Below, one piece after another: positions 9,336 through 35,219 of a stretch of 40,769 nt of DNA. Origin of the DNA: Roseibium sp. TrichSKD4 (GTDB taxonomy: Bacteria > Pseudomonadota > Alphaproteobacteria > Rhizobiales > Stappiaceae); contig NZ_GL476310.1 of the NCBI RefSeq assembly GCF_000148725.1, positions 275,723 through 316,491 on the forward strand, in the 5' to 3' direction. The position numbers and the translations under genes are program-made. Numbering within the stretch: position 1 is the first letter of the stretch; each line of letters opens with the position of its first letter. A model generated the notes under the pieces. The model saw nothing but the letters and a program-made list of their open reading frames with translations. It was not told the origin of the DNA and made no database searches.

Positions 9336-11147
9336 TCAGGCTTGAGCCGGTGCGGGGTCGCCCGTGTGATCAGGGTCCCGTGGTTCTTCCGCAATTCCGC
9401 CATGTTGGATCAAGCCGAGGTCCCGAATAAGAGGGCTCGGAGCCTGTTCTTCAGGGGTCCGCCAAAGGCCGGATCGTTGGGTGAGGCGACCAAGCCATTC
9501 GGTCGAGGTTGCCATTGCAAACGGGATGGCAAACAACGGGCCAAGCGCAATTGGTAAGACGGGCCAAGTCAGAGCGAATGGTTGTGAAACCATCCAGAAG
9601 CCTGCCACCAGACCAAAAAGGGTTTGGGGCCAGAGTTTGCTGGCGCACAAGACGAAGGGCAGGCGTTGAAGGTCGCGCGCCTGCGCACCCCAACCGATAC
9701 TCTTTCCAAACAATAGCCCGATCATGAAAACGGTATGGGCGATCGCCATGATTGGTGCCACAAGGGCAGAAAAGAAGAGCTCGCCAAATGCACTGACAAG
9801 CACGCGCACCCCGCCGCCAAAACGCGCACGTGCATGCTTTGAGGACAGAATGTCGATGACAGTGGCAATTTTGGGCGCGAACACCATTGTCATGATGGAC
9901 AGAAACAAAATGCCACCGGAGGACGTGTTGATCGGCCAATGACCGGGAGGCATCATCAGGGATATGGCGGCAATGCAGCCAAGGAATACCATCCAGGCTG
10001 GCGAGCCGATAAACATCAGAATTGCCAAGCCAAGCTGAATGCGGCTGGTTAGCTTGAGGCCCGGCAAGCCCAAAAGGCGCATATACTGCAAATTGCCCTG
10101 ACACCAGCGCAGGTCACGACGAATGAATTCGAGCAGGTGCGGCGGGTTTTCTTCGTAGCTGCCGCCTTCTTCTGGCACGACGCGGATGTCGTATCCGGCC
10201 TTGCGCATCAAGACAGCTTCCACTTGATCATGGGACAATATAGGGCCGGAAAGAGGGCCTTTTCCTGCAAAATGCGGGAGGCGGCAATGCTCCTTGAATG
10301 GGGCGATGCGGAAAATGGCATTATGTCCCCAATATGGACCACAATCTCCCTGCCACCACGCGCTGCCGAGCGTATAAGACCGCATACCCAAACGCATGCC
10401 AAACTGAAAGATTCGCGCAAAAGAACTTGCAGCTGGAAGACCGACTGCAAGGCTCTGCAGGATACCTAAGTTAGGGTTTGCTTCCATTTTGCGCACAAGG
10501 TCCAGCAGGCGGTCGGCGGACATCACGCTGTCGGCATCAAGAGTGATTGCGAAATCATACTGGCCACCCCAGCGGTCGCAAAAATCCATGACGTTTCCGG
10601 ACTTGAAGCCGGTATTTATGGTCCGCCGTCGATATACGATCTCAATATCCGCCGACCAGTGTTGCTTCAGGTCTGAAACCATCTGCTCTTCAAGGATGGC
10701 AACATCCTCATCGGATGTGTCACTCAGAACAAACAGCGAGAATGGTGAGATCGCTTTGTCTCGGACCAGCTCTGCCAGCATCGCTGACAACCGGATATGG
10801 AGCGCTTCTACATCTTCGTCGCGAATACATGACAAGAGCGCAGTCTTGGTGGAAATTTGTCGTGAGGCGTCACCCGGTTCAATCGGACATACATTTTTAA
10901 CCGGGTCTTTGCTCAACCGCATGAGCAAAAGGCCGATGACGGCGTTGAGGAACCCAATGATTGTCCACGGCAGGGTAATCATGAAACAGACAAGCAGCGT
11001 GGCATCGAGCAGGCTGAAGCCGCCGGGTGCCAATGTTACGGCCATCAAGGCGGTGAGTGACACAAAAGACAGCGCAAACAAGAGGGTGAAACCAATTCTG
11101 CGGCCGGTTACTGATTTTGAATTTGGAACGAAAGCCAGGTCACGCAT
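9336..11147 (-). CDS. opgH: Glucan biosynthesis glucosyltransferase OpgH/MdoH
   Basis: The 603-residue inner-membrane GT2 enzyme builds the backbone of osmoregulated periplasmic glucans from UDP-glucose. Two hydrophobic segments lie near the N-terminus, followed by a cytoplasmic GT2 domain with ITLDADSVMS and the R-x-x-RW-type motif RRDLRWCQGN, and then several C-terminal membrane segments. It lacks the long N- and C-terminal extensions of the E. coli protein, as usual in Alphaproteobacteria. The start could be ATG at 11147 or in-frame TTG at 11162; neither has a strong ribosome-binding site. No opgG or opgD partner is adjacent, which is unusual because opgG normally precedes opgH. Confidence 0.9.
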   Translation of the reverse strand: MRDLAFVPNSKSVTGRRIGFTLLFALSFVSLTALMAVTLAPGGFSLLDATLLVCFMITLPWTIIGFLNAVIGLLLMRLSKDPVKNVCPIEPGDASRQISTKTALLSCIRDEDVEALHIRLSAMLAELVRDKAISPFSLFVLSDTSDEDVAILEEQMVSDLKQHWSADIEIVYRRRTINTGFKSGNVMDFCDRWGGQYDFAITLDADSVMSADRLLDLVRKMEANPNLGILQSLAVGLPAASSFARIFQFGMRLGMRSYTLGSAWWQGDCGPYWGHNAIFRIAPFKEHCRLPHFAGKGPLSGPILSHDQVEAVLMRKAGYDIRVVPEEGGSYEENPPHLLEFIRRDLRWCQGNLQYMRLLGLPGLKLTSRIQLGLAILMFIGSPAWMVFLGCIAAISLMMPPGHWPINTSSGGILFLSIMTMVFAPKIATVIDILSSKHARARFGGGVRVLVSAFGELFFSALVAPIMAIAHTVFMIGLLFGKSIGWGAQARDLQRLPFVLCASKLWPQTLFGLVAGFWMVSQPFALTWPVLPIALGPLFAIPFAMATSTEWLGRLTQRSGLWRTPEEQAPSPLIRDLGLIQHGGIAEEPRDPDHTGDPAPAQA

Positions 11148-11265
11148 TCTTGTGCTGTCCAATATTGCTTAAGGGGACAAAATATCTTTTTTTGTAGGCT
11201 GTTACGCATCTCTGCGCGTGATAGTTCATCAACCTCGCAACATTCTTCACAAGGGTGACAAGATT

Positions 11266-12246
11266 GTGTCCGAACCCCGTCACGCAGAAGCGCTTTGGTA
11301 TGTCGGCGAAAAAACCTGCGAGATCCGCAGTGAGCGGCTGCCGCATCAAAATGAAACTGAAGCTCATGTTGCGACGAGCTATAGCTTGATCAGCCGAGGT
11401 ACAGAGCGACTTGTTTTTCAGGGGCGCGTTCCGAAAAGCGAGCATGCGCGCATGCGCGCGCCGTTTCAGGTCGGTGAATTCACATTTCCGGTAAAATACG
11501 GGTATGCCTGTGTGGGCAAGGTCACAAGTGGCCCGGCCGACTGGCTGGACCGTCCTGTTTTTTGCCTTCACTCTCATCAAACAAGTTTTGTTACGCAAAC
11601 CAACTACCTGACACCTGTACCTGACACAGTTCCTGTCCGCCGGGCGGTTCTCGCAGCGAACATGGAAACGGCTTTGAATGCTTTATGGGATGGAAAGCCA
11701 TCACCTGCAGATCAAATTTGTGTGGTCGGGGCGGGCGTGGTTGGATTATTGACTGCGTATCTTTGTCAGAAAATCCCAGGAACGAGCGTGACTGTGGTCG
11801 ATATTAATCCGGCGCGGGGGGGCTTGGCCAACCGGTTGGGGTGTAAATTTGCGTTGCCGGATAATGCTCCTGAGGAACAAGATATTGTCTTTCATGCCAG
11901 TGCAAGTACCGCCGGCCTGCAAACTGCCCTGTCGGCGGCGGGCAAGGGGGCGACAGTCGTGGAATTGAGCTGGTACGGCGACAAACCGGTCACCGTTAAC
12001 CTAGGGGCAGAGTTTCACAGCCAGCGATTGACCCTCCTTTCCAGTCAGGTCGGCAGTATACCAGCTGACAGGCAAGAGCGCTGGACGTTCAAACGGCGTC
12101 TTCATGCGGCAATGAAGCTGTTGAACGATCCCGTCCTTGACGCACTTTTGACCCATGAAGTCGCTTTTCGTGACTTGCTTTCGAGCCTGCCAGCGCTTTT
12201 AACCGAGCAAGACGATATCCTCACACCTCTTGTTCGGTATGACTGA
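11266..12246 (+). CDS. MDR-family zinc-type dehydrogenase, first gene of a pterin-fold/glycosyltransferase unit
   Basis: The 326-residue protein is a medium-chain dehydrogenase/reductase. An N-terminal GroES-like half carries SLISRGTERLVFQGRVP, resembling the SxGTE block of BchC and threonine-dehydrogenase-like members. The Rossmann half has VVGAGVVGLLTAYL and an acidic VVDINPAR that suggests NAD preference. I do not see the usual Cys/His catalytic zinc set, so zinc dependence is doubtful. Start chosen: GTG at 11266, with AAGGGTG about 9 nt upstream; the frame also allows GTG at 11218. It is followed after 27 nt by a PTPS-like gene, then by two overlapping genes, which implies one operon. The substrate is unknown; a polyol or keto group on a sugar- or pterin-like intermediate is plausible. 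Confidence 0.82.
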   Translation: MSEPRHAEALWYVGEKTCEIRSERLPHQNETEAHVATSYSLISRGTERLVFQGRVPKSEHARMRAPFQVGEFTFPVKYGYACVGKVTSGPADWLDRPVFCLHSHQTSFVTQTNYLTPVPDTVPVRRAVLAANMETALNALWDGKPSPADQICVVGAGVVGLLTAYLCQKIPGTSVTVVDINPARGGLANRLGCKFALPDNAPEEQDIVFHASASTAGLQTALSAAGKGATVVELSWYGDKPVTVNLGAEFHSQRLTLLSSQVGSIPADRQERWTFKRRLHAAMKLLNDPVLDALLTHEVAFRDLLSSLPALLTEQDDILTPLVRYD

Positions 12247-12273
12247 GTTTCTCATTAATCAGAAAGTGTCAGA

Positions 12274-12678
12274 ATGTTTGCAGTAGAAGTTCGTGACCAC
12301 ATCATGATCGCCCACTCGTTTCGAGGCGAGCTTTTCGGCCCTGCTCAGGCATTGCACGGGGCGACATTCGTTGTTGATGCTGCGTTCTTTTCAAGGGAAC
12401 TGGATGCCAATGGTGTTGTGATTGACATTGGCCGAGCCCACGAAGTTCTCAAGGAAATTTTGGCTCCGCTCAACTACAAGAATCTGGATGCGGTGGAGGC
12501 ATTTGAAGGGCAGAACACAACCACAGAGTTTCTGACCAAACACATCCATGATCGTCTGGCCTTGGCTGCTCGGGAGTTGCGGCTGGGGCGTGCGGACGGC
12601 GAAATTACGTTAATCCGAGTAACTCTGTCAGAATCCCATGTGGCGCGTGCTTGGTATGAAGCACCGGTCGAAGGGTGA
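12274..12678 (+). CDS. 6-pyruvoyl-tetrahydropterin synthase / QueD-fold protein, catalytically degenerate
   Basis: The 134-residue protein follows the T-fold pattern of PTPS/QueD: IAHSF (H14), LHGATF (H28), VVIDIGRAHEVLKEILAPLN, NTTTEFLTKHI and LSESHVARAWY (E120, the pterin-anchoring Glu). Against E. coli QueD as I recall it, the catalytic Cys becomes A24, the third zinc-ligand His of HGH becomes A30, and the catalytic Asp-His pair of LDHHYLN becomes N67-Y68. It is therefore unlikely to catalyse the 6-carboxy- or 6-pyruvoyl-pterin reaction. It may bind a pterin or similar ring and do different chemistry. Its TGA overlaps the ATG of the next gene (ATGA-type). Confidence 0.85.
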   Translation: MFAVEVRDHIMIAHSFRGELFGPAQALHGATFVVDAAFFSRELDANGVVIDIGRAHEVLKEILAPLNYKNLDAVEAFEGQNTTTEFLTKHIHDRLALAARELRLGRADGEITLIRVTLSESHVARAWYEAPVEG

Positions 12679-13754
12679 TGAAGCATCTTGTCTTCGCCTA
12701 TCCGGGTGATCTTGATACTCCAACGGGCGGCTATGTTTATGATCGGCGTATTATCACTAGCCTAGAGCAGCTTGGTTGGGATGTCGAGCTTCTGTCGCTT
12801 GGGGAAGGGTTCCCCTTTCCGGAAGAAAAGGTTTTGCGGAAGGCAGAAAAGCGATTGCTCGGTTTGCCGAGAGGCGCCCGTACGGTGATTGATGGGTTGG
12901 CCTATGGCGTGATGGACCACAGCGCGCCTCAATTTGCCACCCATCTGGACATAACAGCTTTGGTGCATCATCCGCTTGGATGCGAAACAGGGTTGTCATA
13001 CGAGCAGGCCGCAGAGTTTATCAATAAAGAACAACGGTCTGTGCAGGCTGCCAAGCGCGTCATCGTGACCAGCCCAGCCACCGCCCAGCAGGTCGAAACC
13101 CTTTTTGGTGTCCCGAGGGAGCGCATCCATGTGGTGGTTCCTGGTACAGAGAAAAGCGCGTCTGTGGATCGAGCCCTAGTCCCGTCCAAATCTACCGCAC
13201 CCAAGCTCCTCTGTGTGGCCACCGTCACACGTCGCAAGGGATATGATTTGTTGGTTCAGGCGCTGGGCCAGTTAGCGGATTTGGATTGGCATCTTGATAT
13301 TGTCGGAGCGACAGACCGCGATCCTGCGTGTTTTGGTGACGTCACAGAATTGATCGCAAAGCACAGCCTTGAAGGTCGGATCACGTTTCACGGGGCACTG
13401 CCAGCGTCAGAACTTGGTCAGTTCTATCGTTCTGCTGATATCTTCGTGCTTGCCAGCCGGTATGAAGGGTATGGCATGGCCTACACGGAAGCTCTCGCCC
13501 ACGGCTTGCCGGTCATTGGCAGTGGTGGAGGAGCTGTACGCCAAACGCTGCCCGAGGGGGCGAGCCTTTATTGTGAGACGGAAAGTGTTGTCCAGCTAAC
13601 TGAGGCTCTGAAAAGGCTGATTATGTTTCCGCAAGAGCGGATGCACTTCGCTCAAGCCGCGCGGGAGGCTGCGAATACCCTGCCGACATGGGCTGCTGCA
13701 GCAAAGCTATTTGCCAGTGCGCTGGGCGATCAAGCGGAGCGGGGCAGATCATGA
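12678..13754 (+). CDS. GT4-family glycosyltransferase
   Basis: The 358-residue protein has two Rossmann lobes of the GT-B fold. The N-lobe begins KHLVFAYPGDLDTPTGGYVYDRR with the Gly-rich acceptor loop. The C-lobe has LLCVATVTRRKGYDLLVQAL and the donor-binding E-x7-E motif in SRYEGYGMAYTEALAHGLPVI. It uses a nucleotide-sugar donor with retention of configuration. The start ATG at 12678 overlaps the previous stop by one base; the GTG one codon earlier is less likely. The stop overlaps the next ATG by 4 nt. Context suggests it glycosylates the product of the dehydrogenase/PTPS-like pair rather than a bulk polysaccharide, but that is inference. Confidence 0.88.
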   Translation: MKHLVFAYPGDLDTPTGGYVYDRRIITSLEQLGWDVELLSLGEGFPFPEEKVLRKAEKRLLGLPRGARTVIDGLAYGVMDHSAPQFATHLDITALVHHPLGCETGLSYEQAAEFINKEQRSVQAAKRVIVTSPATAQQVETLFGVPRERIHVVVPGTEKSASVDRALVPSKSTAPKLLCVATVTRRKGYDLLVQALGQLADLDWHLDIVGATDRDPACFGDVTELIAKHSLEGRITFHGALPASELGQFYRSADIFVLASRYEGYGMAYTEALAHGLPVIGSGGGAVRQTLPEGASLYCETESVVQLTEALKRLIMFPQERMHFAQAAREAANTLPTWAAAAKLFASALGDQAERGRS

Positions 13755-14566
13755 CCACTTTTGGCGCAGATTGGCTGGGTTTACGCCACCCTTATGATCT
13801 TGAAGCGCGGTCTCAAGAAATTGAGAGCCGATTTCTTGAGGCATTGCCTCGTGCAAGCGTTCGGATTCTGGATTTGGCGAGCGGAACCGGAGCAACTGTC
13901 AGGGCGTTGAGCGAGAAGTTGCGGCGATCTGGTCGTGTCCATCAACATTGGATCTTGTCAGATTTTGACAGCGGACTTCTAGAAAAAGCTGAGGCCCTTC
14001 AGGGCCAAGGTGAAGGCGTCACCATTGAAACAAGACAGGTGAATTTGGCAGAAGACTGCGCAAGCCTGCCGTTTCAATCCGTGGACGGGGTCACAGCCTC
14101 TGCTTTCTTCGACTTGGTTAGCTCAGACTTTGTAGAAGAGTTGGTGTCTGGGTTAGCTTCACATCGGCTGCCGCTTTTGGCGGGCCTTAATTATGACGGC
14201 CGAACTGCGTGGACGCCCGAACATCCTGCCGATGAAGCTGTTATTTCGTGTTTCAATCACCATCAACGTGGGGATAAGGGATTTGGTCCTGCCTTGGGGC
14301 CGACCACCACAGAGTGCCTAACGAACGTCTTAAAAAGTTCCGGGTATACCGTCTCAACCGATCAGTCAGACTGGGTCATCGGTAATGGTCACGGGGATAT
14401 GCAAAAGGCTCTCCTTTCCGGTTGGATCCAGGTGGCAGAGGAAATGGCGATGGATCCAGCAGAACTTGCGGCTTGGCGAAAAGAACGGACGGCGCAGTTG
14501 GCCTCTGATAATCAGTCGATGATGGTTGGCCATATGGACCTTTGCGCTCGAATGGGCGCTGTTTGA
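13751..14566 (+). CDS. Class I SAM-dependent methyltransferase
   Basis: The 271-residue protein has a Rossmann methyltransferase core with motif I ILDLASGTGATVRAL (about residues 39-53), an acidic post-I strand (WILSDFDSGLLEKA) and LPFQSVDGVTASAFFDLVSSDF as the motif IV region. It is the last gene of the four-gene unit and overlaps the glycosyltransferase stop by 4 nt (ATGA). The full-length frame from 13688 is rejected because it would run into the upstream coding frame. The methyl acceptor is unknown; the context allows O- or N-methylation of the same glycosylated small molecule. Confidence 0.85.
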   Translation: MTTFGADWLGLRHPYDLEARSQEIESRFLEALPRASVRILDLASGTGATVRALSEKLRRSGRVHQHWILSDFDSGLLEKAEALQGQGEGVTIETRQVNLAEDCASLPFQSVDGVTASAFFDLVSSDFVEELVSGLASHRLPLLAGLNYDGRTAWTPEHPADEAVISCFNHHQRGDKGFGPALGPTTTECLTNVLKSSGYTVSTDQSDWVIGNGHGDMQKALLSGWIQVAEEMAMDPAELAAWRKERTAQLASDNQSMMVGHMDLCARMGAV

Positions 14567-14764: not shown

Positions 14765-15013
14765 ATGCATGATGTTGTTCGCCAATTGCTCGCCAAACAT
14801 GGTAGCCTTCCGGTTTCCGTTGATGAGATTGCCAATAACGCTGATCTTTATGATGCTGGTCTCTCGTCATTTGCGTCAGTGCAGTTGATGCTCGCTCTGG
14901 AAGAGCATTTTGATGTCGAGTTTCCAGAGCATTTGCTGAACCGAAAGTCCTTCTCTTCAATCGACGCAATCGCAGCAGCCGTCTCTGAAATAGCAGACGA
15001 TCAGGCGGCGTGA
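14765..15013 (+). CDS. Acyl carrier protein-like carrier, probable amino-acid acceptor
   Basis: The 82-residue protein is a four-helix carrier. The phosphopantetheine attachment site is S35 in DAGLSSFASVQLMLALEE; the usual DSL is replaced by SSF. AAGGA sits 9 nt before the ATG, and a 198-nt gap upstream should contain the promoter. The stop overlaps an in-frame GTG of the next gene. It is the first gene of a unit with an acyl-CoA-dehydrogenase-like protein and an amino acid:[carrier protein] ligase. The proposed role is to hold an aminoacyl thioester, as shown for the carrier partners of these ligases in Bradyrhizobium, rather than to serve fatty acid synthesis. Confidence 0.9.
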   Translation: MHDVVRQLLAKHGSLPVSVDEIANNADLYDAGLSSFASVQLMLALEEHFDVEFPEHLLNRKSFSSIDAIAAAVSEIADDQAA

Positions 15014-15015
15014 GC

Positions 15016-16200
15016 ATGACCGCTGCTGGACCTGTAACTGCTATGAGTTTGCCGGAACGCGCGAAACGTGCCGCAAAGGTTGCCGCCAAATATGCCGATG
15101 CTGTCGATCGCGAAGGTAGGTTTCCCAGTGAAGCGCTGGACGCGATGAAAGCCGAGCGCTTGATGGGCGTCATGATCAAGGCTGAACTGGGCGGTGAGGG
15201 TGCGAGCCTCTCAGAGGTGGCAGACGTTTGCGTCACCCTCGGCCAGGCATGCGGGTCAAGCGCCATGGTTTATGCCATGCACCAGATCCAGATCGCGAGC
15301 CTCAATGACTATGCCGTTGGAAGCGCATGGTATGAGGAATTTCTGGGCCGCGTTTGTGATGAGCAGCTTCTGATCGGATCTGCCACCAGCGAAGCCGGTG
15401 GAATTGGCGGCAATCTGCGCAATTCTATTTGTGCTGTTGACGTGGTCGGTGATGTGGTTCGTCTCGAGAAAGACGCCACCGTGATTTCCTATGGTGAAGC
15501 TTCTGATGCGATCATGGTCACCTCCAGACGCAACGCGGATGCAGCGCCTTCGGATCAGGTCTCAACGGTTTTCGTCAAAGGGCAGTACACGCTCGAAAAA
15601 ACGACCGATTGGGACACCCTCGGTATGCGCGGCACCTGCTCGGAAGGTTTTATCTTCCGTGCCGAAGGGGCGAAAGAGCAAATCTTGCCGCGGCCTTTTG
15701 CCGAAATTGCGGCTCAATCCATGCTGGCGGTATCGCACCTCCTTTGGAGTGCGCTTTGGTATGGCATTGCCTATGACGCATTCGCGCGCGGGCAATCCTT
15801 CGTCAAAGCGGCAGCACGGAAAAACCCGGGCCAGACACCGCCGGGTGCGCTGCGGGTCGCTGAGGCAGCCAATCTCTTGCAGCAGGTCAAGGGCAATGTC
15901 GTGTCAGGTCTGAAGCAGTTTGAAGCTGCCAAGGGCAATCCAGATGCCTTGAACGCCATGAGTTTTGCGGTGGCTATGAACAACATCAAGATCGGCACGT
16001 CCCAAACGATCCTGACAGTCATCAATCATTGCATGCTGATTTGCGGTATCGCTGGGTACAAGAATGACACGCCCTACAGTTTGGGGCGGCATCTGAGAGA
16101 TGCTCATTCGGCGCAGCTAATGATCTCCAATGACCGTGTCTTGGGCAACACCTCGACAATGCTTCTGGTCAACAAACCTGACCCGAGCCTTGTGGGGTAA
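15016..16200 (+). CDS. Acyl-CoA dehydrogenase-family flavoprotein, likely acting on a carrier-bound substrate
   Basis: The 394-residue protein spans the whole acyl-CoA dehydrogenase fold: N-terminal helical domain, central beta domain (SATSEAGGIGGNLRN, DWDTLGMRGTCSEGF) and C-terminal helical domain (SLGRHLRDAHSAQLMIS). Where dehydrogenases have the catalytic Glu in an EGT motif, this protein reads NDRVLGNTS, so the standard base appears to be missing, as in flavin monooxygenase-like branches. The start is ATG at 15016 or GTG at 15010; the AGGCGG spacing favours ATG. Coupled to a carrier protein and an aminoacyl ligase, it probably oxidises a tethered aminoacyl group, in the way prolyl-carrier dehydrogenases do in pyrrole pathways. 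Confidence 0.85.
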   Translation: MTAAGPVTAMSLPERAKRAAKVAAKYADAVDREGRFPSEALDAMKAERLMGVMIKAELGGEGASLSEVADVCVTLGQACGSSAMVYAMHQIQIASLNDYAVGSAWYEEFLGRVCDEQLLIGSATSEAGGIGGNLRNSICAVDVVGDVVRLEKDATVISYGEASDAIMVTSRRNADAAPSDQVSTVFVKGQYTLEKTTDWDTLGMRGTCSEGFIFRAEGAKEQILPRPFAEIAAQSMLAVSHLLWSALWYGIAYDAFARGQSFVKAAARKNPGQTPPGALRVAEAANLLQQVKGNVVSGLKQFEAAKGNPDALNAMSFAVAMNNIKIGTSQTILTVINHCMLICGIAGYKNDTPYSLGRHLRDAHSAQLMISNDRVLGNTSTMLLVNKPDPSLVG

Positions 16201-17112
16201 ATGATGGAAAAGCCGATTTCATTTCTCGACCAGCTGTTTGAGAAGCGCATTCTCCACGACAGCGGCGTTGACGGCCTTTATGCGCGCAGCGCGCAGTTTG
16301 AGGATGTGGTCAGCCGGTTTGAAACCTTCGCGCTCACTTTTGGTGCAGATGAAATCACCGAATCCATGATGTTCCCGCCCGGTATGCCCATGGCTGATTT
16401 TGAGACCAGCGGGTATATGAAGAGCTTTCCGCATTTGGCGGGAACGGTTCATGCCTTTTGCGGGTGCGACAGTGACCATATGGGTTTGCTGCAATGCCTG
16501 GCCGAGGGTGAGGACTGGACGAAGAATCAAAAGGCAACACAGGTGGCACTGACACCTGCAGCTTGCTATCCGCTTTACCCGATATTGGCGCGCCGCGGTG
16601 TTTTGCCGGAAGATGGTGCCTACGTTGCTCTGCAGTCTTATTGTTTCAGGCATGAGCCGTCGAAAGACCCGGCGCGGATGCAAATGTTCCGTCAGCGGGA
16701 GTATGTTCGCGTGGGAACCGCTGAACAGACCATGGCCTTCCGGAACACATGGAAAGAGCGGGGGTCGGTGATGATGGAGCGCCTGTGCCTGCCGCATGAG
16801 GTCGATGTTGCAAACGATCCGTTTTTTGGGCGCGGTGGCCGCATGATGGGTGTAAGCCAGCGCGAGCAAGCCTTGAAGTTTGAGATGTTGGTCCCGATCA
16901 ACTCGACGGAAAAACCTACGGCCTGCATGAGCTTCAACTACCACACCGACAATTTTGGCAAGGCATGGGACATTCGGCTTCCCGATGGCAATCCAGCCCA
17001 TACCGCTTGTGTAGGCTTCGGTCTGGAGCGGATCACGCTGGCCTTGTTCCGCCATCACGGGCTTGACGTCGATGCGTGGCCGGATGAGGTCCGTTCCGCT
17101 CTGTGGGGGTGA
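16201..17112 (+). CDS. Amino acid:[carrier protein] ligase (class II seryl-tRNA-synthetase-like)
   Basis: The 303-residue protein is a stand-alone class II aminoacyl-tRNA synthetase catalytic core without a tRNA-binding arm. Motif 2 is seen in CFRHEPSKDPARMQMFRQRE (148-167) and motif 3 in GFGLERITLAL. C122, E167 and C270 match in spacing the Cys-Glu-Cys zinc site I recall for the Bradyrhizobium japonicum ligase Bll0957. Those enzymes activate a small amino acid (mainly glycine or alanine) with ATP and load it on the phosphopantetheine of a partner carrier protein. The ATG directly follows the stop of the flavoprotein gene, and the carrier gene heads the unit. The amino acid used here is not known. 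Confidence 0.92.
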   Translation: MMEKPISFLDQLFEKRILHDSGVDGLYARSAQFEDVVSRFETFALTFGADEITESMMFPPGMPMADFETSGYMKSFPHLAGTVHAFCGCDSDHMGLLQCLAEGEDWTKNQKATQVALTPAACYPLYPILARRGVLPEDGAYVALQSYCFRHEPSKDPARMQMFRQREYVRVGTAEQTMAFRNTWKERGSVMMERLCLPHEVDVANDPFFGRGGRMMGVSQREQALKFEMLVPINSTEKPTACMSFNYHTDNFGKAWDIRLPDGNPAHTACVGFGLERITLALFRHHGLDVDAWPDEVRSALWG

Positions 17113-17118
17113 CGGGTC

Positions 17119-18099
17119 ATGTCGCATGCCATTTTCCCGGATCTCAACCCGGCCACCTATCAACGCCACAGTTTGCATTCGGCTGAACGAGACTGGCCGG
17201 AAACCAACTGTTATCTGGATGTCTGGATTGAGCTGCTTAATGCAATGGGATTACCGCCCGAGGCCTGCCTGGGGTCGTTGATCACGCAAGATTTTGAGGG
17301 CGATCAATTCACTTTCTTCAAGGTGCCACTGGAAGACCTGGAGACTCTATTCGACATTCGTGTCACCGAGTTGGCTATCTATAAACGGGTTGAGGATCAT
17401 ATCCTCGAACAGCTTTCACGGGGGCGTCTATCTCTCGTTGAGGTAGACAGCTATTACCTCCCGGATACGCAGGGCTTTGGCTACAAGCAAGCTCACGGAA
17501 AGACCTCAATTTCGGTCAATCGGTTGGATCTTGAAGCTCGGACAATGGATTATTTCCACGGCTTGTCCTTTTACCATCTGGAAGGAGACGATCTGGACGG
17601 CATTTTTCAGCGCGGAGCTTTCGCGCGCGAGCTTCCGTTCATGCCGTATGCCGAGTTTATAAAGCTACCGGACCAATTCCCCGCCCGCGAAATGGTTGTC
17701 GAGCGGTGCCGCGCCCTTTTAAAGCGCCATATTCGGAGGCGGCCCAAAGAAAATCCGATACGCTCATTTGCTGCCGTGATGCCAGACCATGTCGAAGGAC
17801 TTGCACAACAGCCTTTCGAGGCTTTTCATCTTTACGCTTTCAATACACTGCGTCAGCTTGGGGCCAATTTTGAACTCTATGCCTCGCACCTGTCTTGGCT
17901 GGAAGAGCAGAACAGTGGGCCGGTGACGGAGGCAACAGAAGCTGCCCGCCAAATCTCGCAAACCTGTAAGACGGTCCAATTTCAGCTTGCCCGCGCAGTG
18001 ATGCGAAAGAAGTTTCAAAATCTGGACCATTTGCTCGACTCAGCGATTGATGCATGGGACGAGCTTGTCCAAACTTTGGATACCATCCCGCAGTCCTGA
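17119..18099 (+). CDS. DUF1839-family protein of the carrier-protein unit
   Basis: The 326-residue soluble protein has no signal peptide or membrane segment and matches the DUF1839 family by pattern (starts with FPDLNPATYQRHSLH and ERDWPETNCYLDVWIELL; later EVDSYYLPDTQG). The mixed alpha/beta N-terminal half contains the conserved EVDSYYLPDT-type segment. The C-terminal third is helical. DUF1839 genes recur next to amino acid:[carrier protein] ligases in Alphaproteobacteria, so it probably acts on the loaded carrier. The EVD/H-rich motifs and size are compatible with an amidase- or peptidase-like thiol/acyl-transfer fold, but no catalytic triad can be asserted. It starts 6 nt after the ligase stop. 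Confidence 0.82.
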   Translation: MSHAIFPDLNPATYQRHSLHSAERDWPETNCYLDVWIELLNAMGLPPEACLGSLITQDFEGDQFTFFKVPLEDLETLFDIRVTELAIYKRVEDHILEQLSRGRLSLVEVDSYYLPDTQGFGYKQAHGKTSISVNRLDLEARTMDYFHGLSFYHLEGDDLDGIFQRGAFARELPFMPYAEFIKLPDQFPAREMVVERCRALLKRHIRRRPKENPIRSFAAVMPDHVEGLAQQPFEAFHLYAFNTLRQLGANFELYASHLSWLEEQNSGPVTEATEAARQISQTCKTVQFQLARAVMRKKFQNLDHLLDSAIDAWDELVQTLDTIPQS

Positions 18100-18102
18100 G
18101 GC

Positions 18103-20643
18103 TTGGACCTAACCTTGACCGAACCCAAAAGTCTTTCTCCGATCTGGTCCCCGTCAGGGATGCATCTGTACGCCGCAGAAGCGGTCCTCAATGAAGGTTG
18201 GTCACTGGCGCTAACTGAACCGGATAGATTTTTAGACCCTGAAGAGCTGGCGGATGCGGGGCTGAACTGGGTTGCCGCCAAGGTGCCCGGTACGGGCGCT
18301 GCATCATTGGCAGAAGCGGGCCTCTATGACCCGGAAAACCCGCACCCTCTTCATGACCGTGATGTCTGGTACAGAACCCGGTTTGAAGTTGAGCATCCGG
18401 GCGCAAAGCGAATTGTTTTCGGCGGTTTGGCTACAATTGCCGAAGTGTTCTTAAACGGCGAAAAACTCTTGGAAACCGAAAGCATGTTTCTGGCTCAAGA
18501 GGTTTTCGCCAAGGTCAAAGATACAAACACGCTTGCCATCTGTTTTCGCGCCCTTGAACCACGCCTTGGCAAGAGGGGGCCACGTGCGCGATGGAAAACG
18601 CAGCTTACCGCTACGCAAGGCCTGCGCCATTTCCGCACCACCTTGTTGGGGCACATGCCGGGCTGGTGCCCGGAAGTCCATGCCGTTGGTCCGTGGCGCC
18701 CCATCACACTGCATGATGCGCAAGCTCCGGTTCTTTCAAACCTGAAAATTCAGTCCGAGCTCTTGCCAGACGGCGCTGGGCGATTGTCCGTGTCTTTTGA
18801 GGCAGGCAAGTTAGACGCTGTCCCGCACATTTCGTGCGCGGGCTCTGAGTGCGCGATGACAAGGGGGGGAAATGGTCGATGGGTGGCAAGTGTTGAGCTT
18901 GCCGATATCCATCCCTGGATGCCCTCCACACACGGCACACCACATGTGTATGAGGTGGCTTTAGACATCGACGGACAGGCTGTCAGTTTGGGTAAAACCG
19001 GCTTCCGGCGCATTGAGGTTGATCGCGGAGCAGATGGAAAAGGCTTCGGCCTCAAGATCAACAGTGTCCCCGTCTTCTGCCGGGGAGCGGTGTGGACGCA
19101 GGCCGATTTGCTGGGCCTGTCGGGTACTAAAGAGGCCTATCGCCCGCTGCTTGAGCTTGCCCGTGATGCGGGCATGAATATGCTGCGCATCGGTGGGACT
19201 ATGACCTACAAGACACGGGCGTTCTTTGACCTGTGTGCGGAGCTGGGTATTCTGGTTTGGCAGGATTTCCAGTTCGCCAATTTCGACTATCCCGTTGCCG
19301 ATGATGCATTCGCGGACCTCGTACGCGCTGAAACCCGTCATCAATTGCAGATGCTCGAAGGTTGTCCTGCCCTTGCGGTCTTATGTGGTGGCAGCGAAAT
19401 CTTCCAGCAAGGCGCGATGATGGGGCTTCCGGAAAGCCGTTGGCGGGGGGCGCTCTCTCAAACGCTTTTGGCGGATTGTGCAGCAGAACTTCGGCCGGAT
19501 GTTCCTTACGTTGAAAACTCCCCGGTCGGCGGACATCTTCCATTTTCTGCCAATGAGGGCATTGCACATTATTATGGGGTTGGGGCCTATCAGCAGCCTC
19601 TTGAGGATGCTCGCCGCGCCAATGTCCGATTTACGACCGAATGTCTGGCCTTCTCCAACGTGCCAACGCGGAGAGCATTGGAGCAAAATTTCGCCCTGTC
19701 CGTTGATGATCCGAGATGGAAAGCAGGTATCCCGCGTGATCGCGGCGCGGATTGGGACTTTGAAGATGTCCGAAACCACTACCTGAAACGCCTTTACGAC
19801 ATCGAAGGTCCGGACATTCGCGACGCCGATCCCGAGCGCTACCTTGACCTCTCAAGAGCCGTTGTTGCAGACGTTCTGGAGGCAACGATTTCCGAATGGA
19901 GGCGCTCACAAAGCTCGTGTCAGGGAGCGCTGGTCTGGACGTTTCAAGATGTGGCAACCGGTGCAGGCTGGGGCGTTGTAGATGCTGCCGGTCATCCGAA
20001 GTCCGCTTATTATGCGCTTAAGCGGTCGTACCAACCGCTCCATGTTGCCTTGATCGATGAAGGGACAAACGGTGTTCAGGTTCATCTGACCAATGACACG
20101 CCCTTAAGTCAAAACATTCGCTTGGAAGTCACGTGTTTGCGGGGCGGTGCAGTTCCAGTAGTCAAAGGACAACGCGATCTCGTGCTGACGGCCCAAGCTC
20201 AAATGGACCTGCCAACGACGGACCTGTTCGGGGCATTTTTTGATACCGGATATGTTTTCAAGTTTGGCCCTGCCTCACATGATGTTGTCGTTGCGCGGCT
20301 GATCGCTTCCAACACCGATTTGGTCTTGTCGGAGGCGGTTCATTTCCCGCTTGGTTTTTCAACCGAGCAGTTTCCGCTGAAGGTATCTTTCGAGTTCACG
20401 GAGGTGGATGGTGGTGAGTGGGTCTTGAGCCTAGAAACAGAGAAAACGCTTCGGTTCGTGCAACTGGACTTTTTGGACTTTCGAACATCAGATGACGGGT
20501 TTACGCTTGTCCCGGGGCGAAAAAAGCAGGTGCGCTTGAAACCGGAACCCGGAACCGAACACACCCGGCCGCAGGGTAGCCTTCGAGCGCTAAACGGTCT
20601 TGGAGAACTGAACCTCAGCCCTGACGTATCGAAAAAGACCTAG
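18103..20643 (+). CDS. Glycoside hydrolase family 2 protein, beta-mannosidase-like, cytoplasmic
   Basis: The 846-residue protein has a jelly-roll sugar-binding domain (about 40-210), an immunoglobulin-like linker, a TIM barrel (about 315-640) and C-terminal beta domains. Barrel landmarks are LRIGGTMTYKTRAFFDLC and ILVWQDFQFANFDYP, close to beta-mannosidases. The probable acid/base is E432 in LCGGSEIFQQ and the probable nucleophile is E513 in RFTTECLAFSNVP. There is no signal peptide, so it should be cytoplasmic, which is unusual for polymer degradation. The start is probably TTG at 18103, with GAGG just upstream, 3 nt after the DUF1839 stop. Its place in the carrier-protein unit suggests trimming or transglycosylation of a glycoside made in the cell. 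Confidence 0.85.
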   Translation: MDLTLTEPKSLSPIWSPSGMHLYAAEAVLNEGWSLALTEPDRFLDPEELADAGLNWVAAKVPGTGAASLAEAGLYDPENPHPLHDRDVWYRTRFEVEHPGAKRIVFGGLATIAEVFLNGEKLLETESMFLAQEVFAKVKDTNTLAICFRALEPRLGKRGPRARWKTQLTATQGLRHFRTTLLGHMPGWCPEVHAVGPWRPITLHDAQAPVLSNLKIQSELLPDGAGRLSVSFEAGKLDAVPHISCAGSECAMTRGGNGRWVASVELADIHPWMPSTHGTPHVYEVALDIDGQAVSLGKTGFRRIEVDRGADGKGFGLKINSVPVFCRGAVWTQADLLGLSGTKEAYRPLLELARDAGMNMLRIGGTMTYKTRAFFDLCAELGILVWQDFQFANFDYPVADDAFADLVRAETRHQLQMLEGCPALAVLCGGSEIFQQGAMMGLPESRWRGALSQTLLADCAAELRPDVPYVENSPVGGHLPFSANEGIAHYYGVGAYQQPLEDARRANVRFTTECLAFSNVPTRRALEQNFALSVDDPRWKAGIPRDRGADWDFEDVRNHYLKRLYDIEGPDIRDADPERYLDLSRAVVADVLEATISEWRRSQSSCQGALVWTFQDVATGAGWGVVDAAGHPKSAYYALKRSYQPLHVALIDEGTNGVQVHLTNDTPLSQNIRLEVTCLRGGAVPVVKGQRDLVLTAQAQMDLPTTDLFGAFFDTGYVFKFGPASHDVVVARLIASNTDLVLSEAVHFPLGFSTEQFPLKVSFEFTEVDGGEWVLSLETEKTLRFVQLDFLDFRTSDDGFTLVPGRKKQVRLKPEPGTEHTRPQGSLRALNGLGELNLSPDVSKKT

Positions 20644-22364
20644 CGCTCAATCAGGTTTTCCAGATATCCAAAAAACGATTCTCGAGCGGCTGGTGGTGTC
20701 AGATTGTGGTCTGCGTTTGGCACCTTGGTCAGGGTCACGTTCGGATAGGCGCGAAGGCCCTTCCGATCTTTGCCAAAATAGAGCGCCAACTGTTCTAGGC
20801 TCTGATCGCCCTCACTGCAGAGAAAATACATTGAAACATCACGTGCACGAAGGGCTTTGAAGATCTCATGGCACTCCTGGCGAAACCGTCCATGCTTGGA
20901 AATGTTAGGCCAGACTGGTGCAATCATGTGAGAAACACGCGTGACAGCATGGCTGCTCAAGCCGCGCATGACACCGGGAATGCTGATGTCCCCGGTCAAA
21001 AGCCGCTTCAAGGTTTTGGGGTCACCAAACCGCTTCTTGTAATCCCCCATGGAGCGCGGCCCCATGCGTGTTGGGTCAGTCAGGCTTTCCTCCGGGTCCC
21101 AAATCAATCGGACCTGATTGCACAAAAACAATTGAGTGATCCGATCATCTCGAAACGCGGCCTGAAACGCAGTATAGGCCCCGCTACACCGTCCCACCAA
21201 GGTGATCGGGCCGGAGGTCTTTGTTCGGATGAAATCAATGAGCGCGCTGGTGTCCTTGATCGGACCCTCCGTATAAAGCACTTGCTCCGGCTCACTGTTA
21301 GCTGGAGGACTATCGCCAATATTGGCGAAATCAGCCCGTAAACAAAGCGCACCTTTCGAGGCACATCGTCGGCTTGCCTCAACCCACGCACGCGCCCAAC
21401 CACCATGATGGTCGTACCCAGAATTCAAAAAGATAAGTGCAGGCGCATCCGGCTCGGAGGCTTCAGGTGAGCAAAGCACTCCATAAAGCGGCGCGCTTCC
21501 TTCAATAATGACACCCTCTTCAATGTAGCCAGAGCCACTTACATGCGTGGACCAGGTGGTCTGAAGCGGGAAAATGCTGGTAGCTGCGGAGGAGTGCTCA
21601 ATGCACCAGTCAACAATCTGGCTCAATACCTGATCAGGAATAATGGAGGCCGTTGGGTCTTCCAACAATTGAGTGTAGCCATCAAACGCGATTTCTGAAA
21701 CAGGGCAACCTGCTTCCTTCATTTGCGCCACAAACTTCTGATCGGACGCTTTGTCCTCTCGACTAACCACCAGAGTGGGAATATTGGCAAGTCGAGGCGG
21801 AGAAAAGGTCCGGAGATCCTCCGCTAGCCGTGGCTCCATGATAATGCCAGCAATGGACACGTGGCCCAGTAGTATTTGAAAAGCATCAAGGCCTAGGCCA
21901 TCATGAATGACCTTCGCTCGTAGCTCCACCTCACGCAAATATCTTCTGGGGTTACCAACAGGGGCTGCATGCACAACACCCTTTACAAGGGAGTGGCTAT
22001 AAATCTGCTGGGCAATAACGCTTCCCAACCCAAACCCGAAAATGATGATTTCATCTGCGCCGCTTACCTTGTGCAAGGTGTCCAGCGCTGACAGGGCTGA
22101 GCTTTCCCAGGCTTGCAAACTTTGCCCGTCTCTTGGGTCCAATGCGTCAACGGTGCCGGGGTAGTCAAACCGCAAGGAAGCGATACCCGCTTGCGAGAGT
22201 TCTTCGGCGAGTCGGCGGAAAAACTTCCGGGTGCAAAGTTCATCAAAACCCCACGGCCGCAGCATGAGAACCGCTGCGCTACGGCGGGTTTCCAGGTTTG
22301 GAGCGGCGAAAATGCCATGACTATCGATCAGTGAAACGGGAACAGGGCGCAGATGATCAATCAT
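20640..22364 (-). CDS. Two-lobed alpha/beta-hydrolase with Cys nucleophile
   Basis: The 574-residue protein is two alpha/beta-hydrolase domains in tandem (about 1-260 and 285-574). The first nucleophile elbow reads GFGLG (110-114), with Gly at the catalytic position, so the first lobe looks inactive. The second reads GRCSG (391-395), with C393 as nucleophile and D520 (SEGDQS) and H553 (ADHNLT) completing a Cys-Asp-His triad. There is no signal peptide. The gene converges on the GH2 gene with a 4-nt overlap and overlaps the upstream flippase gene by 8 nt, so it is transcribed with the flippase. Hydrolase, thioesterase or acyltransferase activity on a carrier- or glycan-linked group is possible. 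It resembles hydrolases associated with polysaccharide export systems. Confidence 0.83.
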   Translation of the reverse strand: MIDHLRPVPVSLIDSHGIFAAPNLETRRSAAVLMLRPWGFDELCTRKFFRRLAEELSQAGIASLRFDYPGTVDALDPRDGQSLQAWESSALSALDTLHKVSGADEIIIFGFGLGSVIAQQIYSHSLVKGVVHAAPVGNPRRYLREVELRAKVIHDGLGLDAFQILLGHVSIAGIIMEPRLAEDLRTFSPPRLANIPTLVVSREDKASDQKFVAQMKEAGCPVSEIAFDGYTQLLEDPTASIIPDQVLSQIVDWCIEHSSAATSIFPLQTTWSTHVSGSGYIEEGVIIEGSAPLYGVLCSPEASEPDAPALIFLNSGYDHHGGWARAWVEASRRCASKGALCLRADFANIGDSPPANSEPEQVLYTEGPIKDTSALIDFIRTKTSGPITLVGRCSGAYTAFQAAFRDDRITQLFLCNQVRLIWDPEESLTDPTRMGPRSMGDYKKRFGDPKTLKRLLTGDISIPGVMRGLSSHAVTRVSHMIAPVWPNISKHGRFRQECHEIFKALRARDVSMYFLCSEGDQSLEQLALYFGKDRKGLRAYPNVTLTKVPNADHNLTPPAARESFFGYLENLIER

Positions 22365-23877
22365 TCAGCGAACGCTTCTCTGCAGGAGCCAGAAAATACA
22401 GTGATTTAATCGCAACGTCTTGGAGGCGTTCCGGAATAACCTTTGGAAGATTGGCTTCTATTGCCCAAATGTCTTCTACGGGAATGCATTTCAAAAGCCG
22501 AAGCGAGAACAGATAGGAGAACGCGCCAGCAGCAATTGCCAAACCCAGACCCCAGATGTCCGGCTGATACGACAGGGTGAAGTGTGCAGCAGCAGCGCAG
22601 GCAATTCCCGCTGAAAGCAATCGGATCATTTCCCAGACATCAAATTTCACGTCGAGCTTGAACCAGCAAAAAAGGACGAGCCATAGAAGCCAGATTATGT
22701 GGATCGCGGCCCGAACCCAAGCGGCACCTTCGCCGCCGAGCGAGGGAACCACAAGAGCGAGTACGCCAACAGAAAGCACCGCGAGTATGGGAGTGGAGTA
22801 AAGGAAAAAGGAGGACATTTCTCTTGCACTGATAGTCAAGGACGGAACCATAGACAGGGCAGTCGCAAGCGCAGAGGCGACAATGATGATGGCCATCGGT
22901 ATGGCTGCCGCAAATTCAGGGACGAACAAGAGGGGCAGCATTACCGGGATCACAGCTGCCCCGCCGAAGCAAATTGGCATCATCATGAGTGTGATCCATC
23001 GCAACACTCTTTGATAAGTCAGGTTTATCTGTTGCACATCGTCGTTATCGTGGTGGCGCCCCATATGTGGGGTCAGGGCGGCGACCATTTGAGTTGGTAG
23101 TTGAACAACGAGATTGGACAGGGTCAGCCCTGCGGCGTAGTAGCCGATTTCCGTTGTCGAAAAATATAACCCGAGGAACAGGATTTCGATCCGACCCCAG
23201 ATCATCAATCCCATAATGTCAGAGAACCACTCATTGCGGGCATGTGCGCGCATTTTGGGTTGGACAACGACGCCTTCTGCAGCAGGTATTTTGATATATT
23301 TTGAAAGTTTGACCAATTGCGGAATGTATCTGGCGACATAACCTGCAAGTGCCCCGGGAACGCCAAAAAAATAGGCGCCAATCAGCACGCACGGCAGTTG
23401 AAGCAAACACCCAATAAAGACCAGCCGTCCCGTTTCGTCAAAACGATTCAAGCCCCGCGCAGAGGCCTCCGCGATTGAGGCCAAACTGAACACTGCAAAG
23501 AACAGCGCTATCATCATCCAGGTTTCAGGAGTGTAGGTAAAAGCTCCATCAGAGTTCTGGAATACGTAACCGTACCCAGCGAACCCCAAGGTAGTCAGAG
23601 CAACTGGCATTGCGAAATAGGGAAGCAGCACCCTGGTCAGACCACCACCGGGATTGCCGGGGCGGTCATATCTCGGCATATAGCGGTTCAAAATGTGGGA
23701 AATTCCCAAGCCTGCAACCAGCGTCATAGTTGTTGTCAACCACAGGGAAAATGCGATCGCACCGCTGCCGTCAGGCCCCAACAACCGCGCAATACCGATG
23801 CTGCAGAGAAAACCGAAGGAAAGGGAAACGAGACCGGCCAATGTACTGAAGGCGGAAGCTGTAATAAAACTGGCCAT
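22357..23877 (-). CDS. Polysaccharide flippase (Wzx/MOP superfamily)
   Basis: The 506-residue integral membrane protein has about 12-14 hydrophobic segments and the N-terminal pattern of lipopolysaccharide/polyunsaturated-linked flippases (SLSFGFLCSIGIARLLGPDGSGAIAF shortened here to the block near residues 18-43). It would flip undecaprenyl-linked oligosaccharide units across the inner membrane. Its stop lies inside the start of the alpha/beta-hydrolase gene, so the two are coupled. The GT2 gene is 60 nt upstream on the same strand. No Wzy polymerase or initiating phosphoglycosyl transferase is visible nearby, so the pathway must use genes elsewhere. Confidence 0.87.
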   Translation of the reverse strand: MASFITASAFSTLAGLVSLSFGFLCSIGIARLLGPDGSGAIAFSLWLTTTMTLVAGLGISHILNRYMPRYDRPGNPGGGLTRVLLPYFAMPVALTTLGFAGYGYVFQNSDGAFTYTPETWMMIALFFAVFSLASIAEASARGLNRFDETGRLVFIGCLLQLPCVLIGAYFFGVPGALAGYVARYIPQLVKLSKYIKIPAAEGVVVQPKMRAHARNEWFSDIMGLMIWGRIEILFLGLYFSTTEIGYYAAGLTLSNLVVQLPTQMVAALTPHMGRHHDNDDVQQINLTYQRVLRWITLMMMPICFGGAAVIPVMLPLLFVPEFAAAIPMAIIIVASALATALSMVPSLTISAREMSSFFLYSTPILAVLSVGVLALVVPSLGGEGAAWVRAAIHIIWLLWLVLFCWFKLDVKFDVWEMIRLLSAGIACAAAAHFTLSYQPDIWGLGLAIAAGAFSYLFSLRLLKCIPVEDIWAIEANLPKVIPERLQDVAIKSLYFLAPAEKRSLND

Positions 23878-28306: not shown

Positions 28307-29158
28307 TTACCAGATCCTTTGGCTCGTCACCTGATGCAGTCTTTTCTCTTCGAAGAAAGGGTCATTCACCGGCTCAGGTGTCAGATGCACCATAAGTCTT
28401 CTCGTGGCAAAAATCCCGGCAATAGCAAAAAGCACCCCACCTACGGCTTGCCCTATCAATACGCCAGAGGCCCCGAAAAAAGCTGCTCCCAATAGCGCAA
28501 ATGGCCAGGTTCCAATCGTGTGCCGGGACCAGTTCAGCAACGTAGAATAGATCGGTTTTCCCAAATTGTTGAAGCTGGCATTGCAGACGAAAATGGCTCC
28601 ATTGAAAAACTGCAGGAGCGCCAGAGGACCGCAGAAGAGGAATAAAAGTGCAGCCATTTCACCGGTCGCACCGAACATATTCGCGATAGGGGTGCGCAGA
28701 AGATACAGAACTGCGGAAACGAAAAGGACGTAGAGCCCGACAAAAACGAGGCCATTAATAAATGTCTGTCGAACACGGTCCATTCTGCCTGCGCCAAAGT
28801 TTTGGCCTACAATTGGTCCGATTGCACCGGAAAGTGCCAAAACGACTGCAACGGCAAGCGGGGTAAGGCGACCGATTACGGCCATGGCAGCAACAGCAAC
28901 CTGAGCAGACAGAACAATGAAAGACTGGCTTTCCAATTCCACGTTTTGAAATTCGAGGCTGCTTAACCCTGAGCCGGGTGAATTGGCAAGCACCTGAATC
29001 CCACCTTGCGGCTCGATCAGGACTTCCACCCCTGTGCGGTAGGAGGGCGTTTTCAAGGCGAGGAAAGCCAATGCAAGAGGCACCGTGATGAGCGGTCCCA
29101 ACAGGAGCCAGATCACGTTTCGCCGCAATATTCCCGGAATGTCTGAAATATCGACCAT
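28307..29158 (-). CDS. Chimeric frame: Wzz-type chain-length domain fused to MATE transporter C-terminal half
   Basis: The 283-residue frame has two unrelated parts. Residues about 1-84 are the N-terminus of a Wzz/Wzc-type polysaccharide co-polymerase: a cytoplasmic start, TM about 16-36, SYRTGVEVLIEPQ, and the ELESQ block. From about residue 85 the text is the second half of a MATE (NorM-like) exporter, with a GRLTP block, IGPIVGQNFGAGRMDRV and about five or six membrane helices. The join falls near 28890-28910, and no stop or frameshift is present. A Wzz protein should continue into a large periplasmic domain and second TM, and a MATE protein should begin with six more helices, so both genes look truncated by one in-frame deletion or rearrangement. 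The product is probably not functional in either role. Confidence 0.8.
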   Translation of the reverse strand: MVDISDIPGILRRNVIWLLLGPLITVPLALAFLALKTPSYRTGVEVLIEPQGGIQVLANSPGSGLSSLEFQNVELESQSFIVLSAQVAVAAMAVIGRLTPLAVAVVLALSGAIGPIVGQNFGAGRMDRVRQTFINGLVFVGLYVLFVSAVLYLLRTPIANMFGATGEMAALLFLFCGPLALLQFFNGAIFVCNASFNNLGKPIYSTLLNWSRHTIGTWPFALLGAAFFGASGVLIGQAVGGVLFAIAGIFATRRLMVHLTPEPVNDPFFEEKRLHQVTSQRIW

Positions 29159-32207: not shown

Positions 32208-32302
32208 GGGGTGGTTATAGCGCAGTTTTCTCCGCTTGCCCTTGTTCAATTCGGCAATGTCGGATGTGTGACATTTGCGGGTCTTAATTGCTCTTTTCCA
32301 AC

Positions 32303-32344
32303 GGAGGTTTAATGATTACAAGAAGGTATGAGCAACAGTTCTGA
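32303..32344 (+). other. Possible 10-codon leader ORF overlapping the cobA start
   Basis: A good GGAGG (32303-32307) precedes an ATG at 32312 that opens a 10-codon frame (MITRRYEQQF) ending at TGA 32342-32344, out of frame with cobA. The cobA ATG at 32328 has only AGAAGG one base upstream, which is too close. The arrangement would let ribosomes load at the leader and re-initiate at cobA. It may also be chance. Confidence 0.3.
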
Positions 32345-34501: not shown

Positions 34502-34524
34502 GACCAACCGTAAATGCGCAGACT

Positions 34525-35157: not shown

Positions 35158-35219
35158 GACAACTCCTCCAGATTTCTTGTCGGATAAGAGCGTAATCGAC
35201 CAGAACGTTGGAACGCAAA

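Follow-up and report, generated by a model that had tools for sequence, protein, structure and literature searches.

What do amino acid:[carrier protein] ligases resembling class II aminoacyl-tRNA synthetases (aaRS) feed? The question is raised by a 40,769-nucleotide stretch of the Roseibium sp. TrichSKD4 genome (contig NZ_GL476310.1, positions 275,723 to 316,491; hereafter the window), in which such a ligase is encoded together with a carrier protein, a flavoprotein of the acyl-CoA dehydrogenase (ACAD) fold, a DUF1839 protein and a GH2 glycosidase. Bll0957-type ligases were reportedly characterised in PNAS in 2010. Sequence comparison and fold modelling suggest, with a probability of about 0.6, that this five-gene cassette loads an amino acid onto the carrier and links it by an amide bond to an amino sugar.

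An earlier note, made from the DNA letters alone, had proposed a related route and treated the end product of such neighbourhoods as not known. Essentially the same proposal had, however, been printed in 2010: in its available portion, a note in proof in Biology Direct 5:48 (PMC2922099) describes the neighbourhood (ligase, carrier, redox enzyme, a conserved uncharacterised open reading frame (ORF), glycosidase and saccharide genes) and predicts that a cell-surface sugar is aminoacylated on its amino group, with an amide bond to the sugar amine and a monooxygenation. The window unit is a member of that published prediction. The same portion of PMC2922099 assigns the uncharacterised ORF no fold, mentions no alpha/beta hydrolase and analyses no active sites; new here are the prediction that DUF1839 has an amide-synthase fold, the Cys hydrolase as a component, readings of the active sites and a link to exosortase-A loci, together with a caution that Bll0957 appears to come from a ligase branch without DUF1839. 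Searches of an open-access library, outside which most subscription papers lie, yielded no experimental test of the 2010 prediction or of what the ligases feed.

Conservation of the five-gene unit

The five genes co-occur beyond chance. In the best 80 of 133 loci from a ligase scan of a species-genome collection, the carrier, flavoprotein and ligase are present in 80 of 80 and DUF1839 and GH2 in 79; the sole locus without all five (L020) stops at a contig end. This set includes Roseibium, Stappia, Oricola, Reyranella, Paraburkholderia and Cupriavidus, the loci closest to the window being those of Roseibium and relatives. A second set, selected on DUF1839, comprises 12 genomes (5 of 385 from one class and 7 of 300 from one order), two of which (G001 and G002) were the centres of the samples and had been picked because they bear the unit. 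All 12 have a ligase above the family cut-off, against totals of 10 ligase genomes in the class and 8 in the order, giving hypergeometric p values of 4e-9 and 2e-13 that are not corrected for kinship. The carrier and flavoprotein adjoin the ligase in 12/12 and GH2 in 11/12. Co-occurrence across genomes, a check that the earlier note had put forward, thus came out in its favour in both sets. Pairwise distances correlate at 0.92–0.97 among the five proteins and at 0.75–0.86 between the unit and a neighbouring alpha/beta hydrolase. ORFs of GC-rich loci were chosen by a codon-position filter, and gene-cluster labels are rough.

In the window, the unit runs head to tail on the plus strand (14765–20643), with a 4-nt overlap of the carrier and flavoprotein genes and later gaps of 0, 6 and 3 nt. 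This compact layout had been described correctly beforehand, and the five family calls made with it are borne out by Pfam and curated-model matches.

DUF1839 is inverted and lies behind GH2 in L043, L048 and L060. Second DUF1839 and GH2 matches occur ~5–7 kb upstream of the carrier gene in L043 and L060, both from Cupriavidus.

Predicted route from amino acid to amide

The component that narrows the ligase-target question to one assay is DUF1839 (domain match, E 1.2e-126). Its model shares, across the whole chain, the fold of the CcbD, AziU3 and CtaG amide synthases, the first of which joins carrier-bound amino acids to amino sugars. Cys31, which opens the core helix (31–42), is Cys in 91 of 92 homologues, and His126 and His147 are both kept in 92 of 92. 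Residue counts here and below leave out short homologues (<290 amino acids (aa) for DUF1839, <280 for the ligase, <70 for the carrier, <350 for the flavoprotein, <600 for GH2 and <500 for the hydrolase). A sequence search of the PDB with DUF1839 returned no match, and the best profile value was 0.57. Given the amide-synthase fold of the model, the likely step is that an aminoacyl group passes from the carrier to an amine, and DUF1839 is most likely the unit's transferase. The earlier note had suggested transfer to a glycan or glycoside without naming a transferase. Atu2574 may be a DUF1839 protein as well.

The carrier matches PRK07081 at 117 bits (cut-off 72) as well as PP-binding, and its Ser35 is kept in 96/96 aligned homologues; in L135, an ACPS-type phosphopantetheinyl transferase gene stands directly ahead of the carrier gene. 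The ligase scores 488.3 bits against NF005479/PRK07080 (cut-off 357) and matches the solved Bll0957 structure (3mey) at E 1.9e-86. Its Cys122, Glu167 and Cys270 are found in 100 of 100 homologues, Cys122 pairing with the Cys of AACYP in 3mey; the three correspond to the metal-site residues Cys131, Glu176 and Cys279 of Bll0957. The ligase therefore belongs, as had been stated, to the Bll0957 family, but Bll0957 seems, by sequence, to lie in the branch that lacks DUF1839: the ligase of L124, of that type, aligns with the 3mey sequence nearly residue for residue and is 48% identical to the window ligase. The substrate preferences of Bll0957 need therefore not hold for the window ligase.

The flavoprotein matches Acyl-CoA_dh_N at 39.3 bits (cut-off 22.9). 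At the two sites that we take to bear the catalytic Glu of acyl-CoA dehydrogenases (Glu376 of MCAD and Glu254 of IVD), the canonical residue is absent in 97/97 homologues, which have Ile, Val or Arg at 372 and Ser, Ala or Cys at 242. Since 7p98, the top profile match and a dehydrogenase, has Thr at the first site, the absent Glu weakens the name dehydrogenase rather than the possibility of dehydrogenation. Oxygenases, among them group D flavin monooxygenases of the DszC/DnmZ type, and dehydrogenases tie in sequence, profile and fold comparisons, so the flavoprotein is not supported as a settled dehydrogenase. An amino acid "oxidised while tethered", as the earlier note had it, agrees with a flavoenzyme in the unit, but is too specific a wording with the canonical Glu missing.

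The GH2 enzyme aligns with beta-mannosidases (E 4e-50). Its catalytic Glu432 and Glu513 are kept in 87/87 homologues, as is the Ser that precedes the acid/base Glu432, while the loop-2 residue Gly364, identified by aligning the protein with the Trp of 6byc, is conserved in 75 of 87 and replaced by Ser in 8. The pair of catalytic Glu, SE instead of NE and the loop-2 Gly fit a GH2_14-like pattern. In its accessible part, a 2025 survey places SE and the loop-2 Gly in subfamily GH2_14, proposed to admit substituted substrates, and explains Ser in GH2_16 by C2 amination (PMC12243196); the exo-glucosaminidase CsxA also carries Ser at that site, according to the part available of PMC6566704. The GH2_14 enzymes covered in that part of the survey were inactive on mannobiose and mannotriose and were measured on pNP-galactoside (PMC12243196), results that make an amino-sugar substrate of the window enzyme neither more nor less likely. 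None of the six window proteins (the five of the unit and the hydrolase) has a hydrophobic N-terminus; the site of GH2 action should therefore be the cytoplasm, and the enzyme is probably cytoplasmic. GH2 is part of the unit, but the trimming role once assigned to it is unproven and, with no signal peptide by hydropathy, would be exerted inside the cell.

The route would begin with ATP-dependent activation of a small amino acid by the ligase and its attachment to the carrier's phosphopantetheine arm, a step that we infer because the ligase lies above its family cut-off, its Cys/Glu/Cys set is invariant and the chemistry of the homologue Bll0957 was shown by others. The flavoprotein may then modify the carrier-bound aminoacyl group by oxygenation or dehydrogenation. 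Given the fold and the invariant residues, Cys31 of DUF1839 is predicted to accept the aminoacyl group and to hand it to an amine in a CcbD-like ping-pong, yielding an amide. In the weakest step, the acceptor would be an amino sugar or its glycoside, and cytoplasmic GH2 would act on the glycoside, either preparing the acceptor or removing wrong products; action on a C2-modified sugar is proposed because the SE motif fits. The Cys hydrolase could be a second carrier-thioester enzyme, serving as an editing thioesterase or in a second transfer step. The product probably joins the polysaccharide made by the nearby Wzx/glycosyltransferase genes in Stappiaceae and in some of the Burkholderiales-type genomes. 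If true, an unusual GH2 subtype gains a role, aaRS evolution is linked to polysaccharide or glycoside chemistry, and the cassette is perhaps a tool for attaching amino acids to sugars.

Parallels exist in antibiotic assembly. The butirosin side chain (BtrI, BtrJ, BtrO and BtrH) is built by flavin oxidation of a carrier-bound amino acid and its papain-like transfer to an aminoglycoside; BtrJ and BtrO belong to enzyme families other than those of the unit, and BtrH_N matches DUF1839 weakly (E 0.061 at best). Lincosamide synthetase (CcbC, CcbZ and CcbD, with their Lmb counterparts) is like the unit in that an amino acid is activated, carrier-loaded and amide-joined to an amino sugar, with the amide step performed by a Cys-dependent protease-like enzyme, CcbD, whose fold DUF1839 has. 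It differs in its antibiotic product, and we know of no flavoprotein–GH2 pair in it. Activation also differs: an adenylation domain (CcbC/LmbC) does what the aaRS-like ligase does in the unit, as described in the available part of the source.

The alpha/beta hydrolase and exosortase-A loci

The Cys-type two-domain alpha/beta hydrolase encoded next to GH2 belongs to the system as a sixth component. Cys393 and His553 are kept in 41/41 homologues, and the window protein has a GRCSG elbow in one half and GFGLG in the other. Of 16 DUF1839 genomes, 15 encode the hydrolase, and 14 have it no more than about 21 kb from a DUF1839 gene on the same contig; in G548, the DUF1839 gene near it is a second copy, and in G192, it lies on another contig than the unit. 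In the 300-genome order sample, in which the best four candidates per genome were scored, at least 8 genomes encode it at E <1e-100, namely all 7 with DUF1839 and G645; further matches at E <1e-40 occur in G467 and G614. The hydrolase was found in 2 of 137 genomes of the other class, both ligase carriers.

Two exosortase-A families, TIGR03101 and TIGR03100, match 13/13 hydrolase members. The window hydrolase differs from the exosortase-A hydrolases in scoring below both family cut-offs (63.6 against 168.45 for TIGR03100; 36.7 against 202.75 for TIGR03101). From 21 genomes over the TIGR03100 cut-off, six exosortase-A loci (L140–L145) were sampled. Like the unit, this set (TIGR03098/03099/03100/03101) combines a carrier with both hydrolase halves, as a pair or a fusion, in 6/6 loci by profile. 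Unlike the unit, it has no DUF1839, ACAD-like or GH2 profile match in 6/6, and the two loci scanned with NCBIfam encode an AMP-forming ligase, accompanied by both hydrolases in L140 and by a fused hydrolase pair and a pyridoxal phosphate (PLP) decarboxylase in L142. In the copies read, the elbow of hydrolase 1 carries Cys and hydrolase 2 lacks the nucleophile (motifs in L140/L142: WGLCDA and WGLRLG). We tentatively suggest that the aaRS-ligase/DUF1839 cassette and the exosortase-A set may be branches of one carrier-fed machinery that acylates amino sugars of surface polysaccharides with amino-containing groups; they would differ in activation (a class II aaRS-like ligase as opposed to an AMP-forming ligase with a PLP decarboxylase), and their common carrier-thioester enzyme would be a tandem alpha/beta hydrolase composed of a dead half and a Cys half. 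This link is new here and is not made in the papers examined.

Acceptor and competing explanations

The surface-glycan setting is lineage dependent. Two Paraburkholderia loci (L051 and L021) have Bac_transf, Wzc, Poly_export, glycosyltransferases and a sub-cut-off Wzy_C match around the unit, and some Stappiaceae loci have flippase and glycosyltransferase genes near it. Glycan genes were recognised near the unit in 6 of 12 DUF1839 genomes, a lower bound from one 15–21 kb stretch per genome and a limited bait set. A surface-glycan region, as originally reported, is therefore a fair description of the window and some lineages, but not of every unit. Overall, the observation made in the earlier note is confirmed and its interpretation partly supported.

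Several points weigh against the proposed amide transfer to an amino sugar. No glycan bait matched beside the other 6 of 12 units within the stretches searched, which leaves room for an acceptor other than a surface glycan, and no GH2 was found in the 20 kb around the G192 unit (1 of 12). DUF1839 is ~11% identical to CcbD, its catalytic His could be His126 or His147, and a 2023 survey, in its available part, describes the triad as a rearranged C(T/S)H and puts forward acyl-CoA-dependent glycan processing (PMC10318531). The hydrolase is absent from G003 despite DUF1839, and G645 has it (1.8e-176) with no DUF1839 or ligase match. Of 18 genomes with a ligase above the cut-off, 6 lack DUF1839 and GH2, 4 of which keep the flavoprotein; in three of the 6 (L126, L127 and L132, recognised by Pfam in the first and by BLAST cluster in the others), a Cys/Met-type PLP gene shares the stretch with the ligase. 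The ligase family can thus feed other acceptors, and, with the characterised Bll0957 apparently of the DUF1839-less type, what is known biochemically was established in the other branch.

In L126, L127 and L132, an ACAD-like gene and the ligase lie near the PLP enzyme, with a carrier found in L126 and L132 and a homoserine O-succinyltransferase homologue in L126 and, by cluster, L127; this branch likely makes a different product. L125 (5455–10371) and L128 (about 9425–12613) hold compact carrier–ligase–Cys hydrolase units, in which a profile search found no flavoprotein, DUF1839 or GH2.

Rather doubtful, in our judgement, is the production of a free small molecule (an aminoacylated glycoside or antimetabolite), with GH2 stripping off a protecting sugar. 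The lack of hydrophobic N-termini in the six window proteins and the 6/12 units with no glycan bait match would agree with it, as would the service of the fold relative CcbD to an antibiotic; AziU3/U2 and CtaG serve antibiotics too (azinomycin and closthioamide). It is opposed by the polysaccharide genes of L051 and L021 and by the flippase and glycosyltransferases of the window and some Stappiaceae, the hydrolase and flippase genes even overlapping in the window. We consider it unlikely that the Cys hydrolase is the main transferase and a general partner of carrier and ligase, leaving DUF1839 to hydrolyse or edit. Ligase genomes without DUF1839 (G137 and G322, the source of L125 and L128) do keep carrier, ligase and hydrolase close together, and 6/6 exosortase-A loci combine a carrier with the hydrolase pair or fusion, hydrolase 1 having its Cys elbow; however, it is DUF1839 that carries an amide-synthase fold along its length, and the hydrolase lies up to about 20 kb away, co-varies more weakly with the unit (0.75–0.86 against 0.92–0.97), sits on another contig in G192 and is missing from G003.

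A stand-alone nonribosomal peptide route, in which the carrier feeds a peptide and not a sugar, appears highly improbable. It was the 2010 PNAS proposal as retold in the available part of PMC2922099, where the ligase–carrier chemistry is likened to that of nonribosomal peptide synthetases (NRPS). Against it, no NRPS condensation protein was present among the Pfam-scanned proteins, which covered part of the genes around the units, and GH2 adjoins 11/12 units. Amide transfer to an amino sugar remains our preferred reading; our confidences in it, in the small molecule and in the hydrolase as transferase overlap.

Neighbouring genes in the window

The GH2 gene converges on the minus-strand hydrolase gene by 4 nt, and the latter overlaps the flippase gene by 8 nt (Table 1), an order of hydrolase and flippase that recurs in L001, L004, L011 and L014 (4 of 80 loci). 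Pfam recognises the flippase (Polysacc_synt_3), GT2, Polysacc_deac_1 and WecG among the neighbours; together with the GRCSG elbow, this agrees with the flippase, glycosyltransferases, deacetylase and Cys-type hydrolase first read from the letters.

Table 1. Positions of the unit genes and of two adjoining genes in the window.
Feature	Position	Strand	Family or domain match
Carrier protein, 82 aa, phosphopantetheine Ser35 in GLSS	14765..15013	+	PRK07081, PP-binding
ACAD-fold flavoprotein, 396 aa, monooxygenase or dehydrogenase	15010..16200	+	Acyl-CoA_dh_N
Amino acid:[carrier protein] ligase, 303 aa, class II aaRS-like	16201..17112	+	NF005479/PRK07080
DUF1839, predicted Cys-dependent carrier-protein:amine transferase (amide synthase)	17119..18099	+	
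GH2 glycosidase, 846 aa, probably cytoplasmic, SE replacing NE at acid/base	18103..20643	+	Glyco_hydro_2_N2, Ig_mannosidase
Two-domain alpha/beta hydrolase, Cys elbow in C-half, sixth component	20640..22364	-	
Wzx-type flippase, lineage-specific partner	22357..23877	-	Polysacc_synt_3

Upstream, at 11218–14566 on the plus strand, lies a string encoding a BchC-like dehydrogenase (MDR), a PTPS-type pterin enzyme, a GT4 glycosyltransferase and a methyltransferase, which is kept in Roseibium relatives and could represent a pterin glycoside route. We place it outside the unit because PTPS occurs in 15/80 loci and stands apart from the unit in L012, L013, L015 and L016. A chimeric ORF at 28307–29158 on the minus strand joins ~80 Wzz-like residues, recognised by eye, to the second half of a MatE transporter (Pfam, 85–211) and is a fusion, a remnant or an assembly join. 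The gene run at 30359–39725 resembles, by eye, cobalamin (cob/cbi) biosynthesis.

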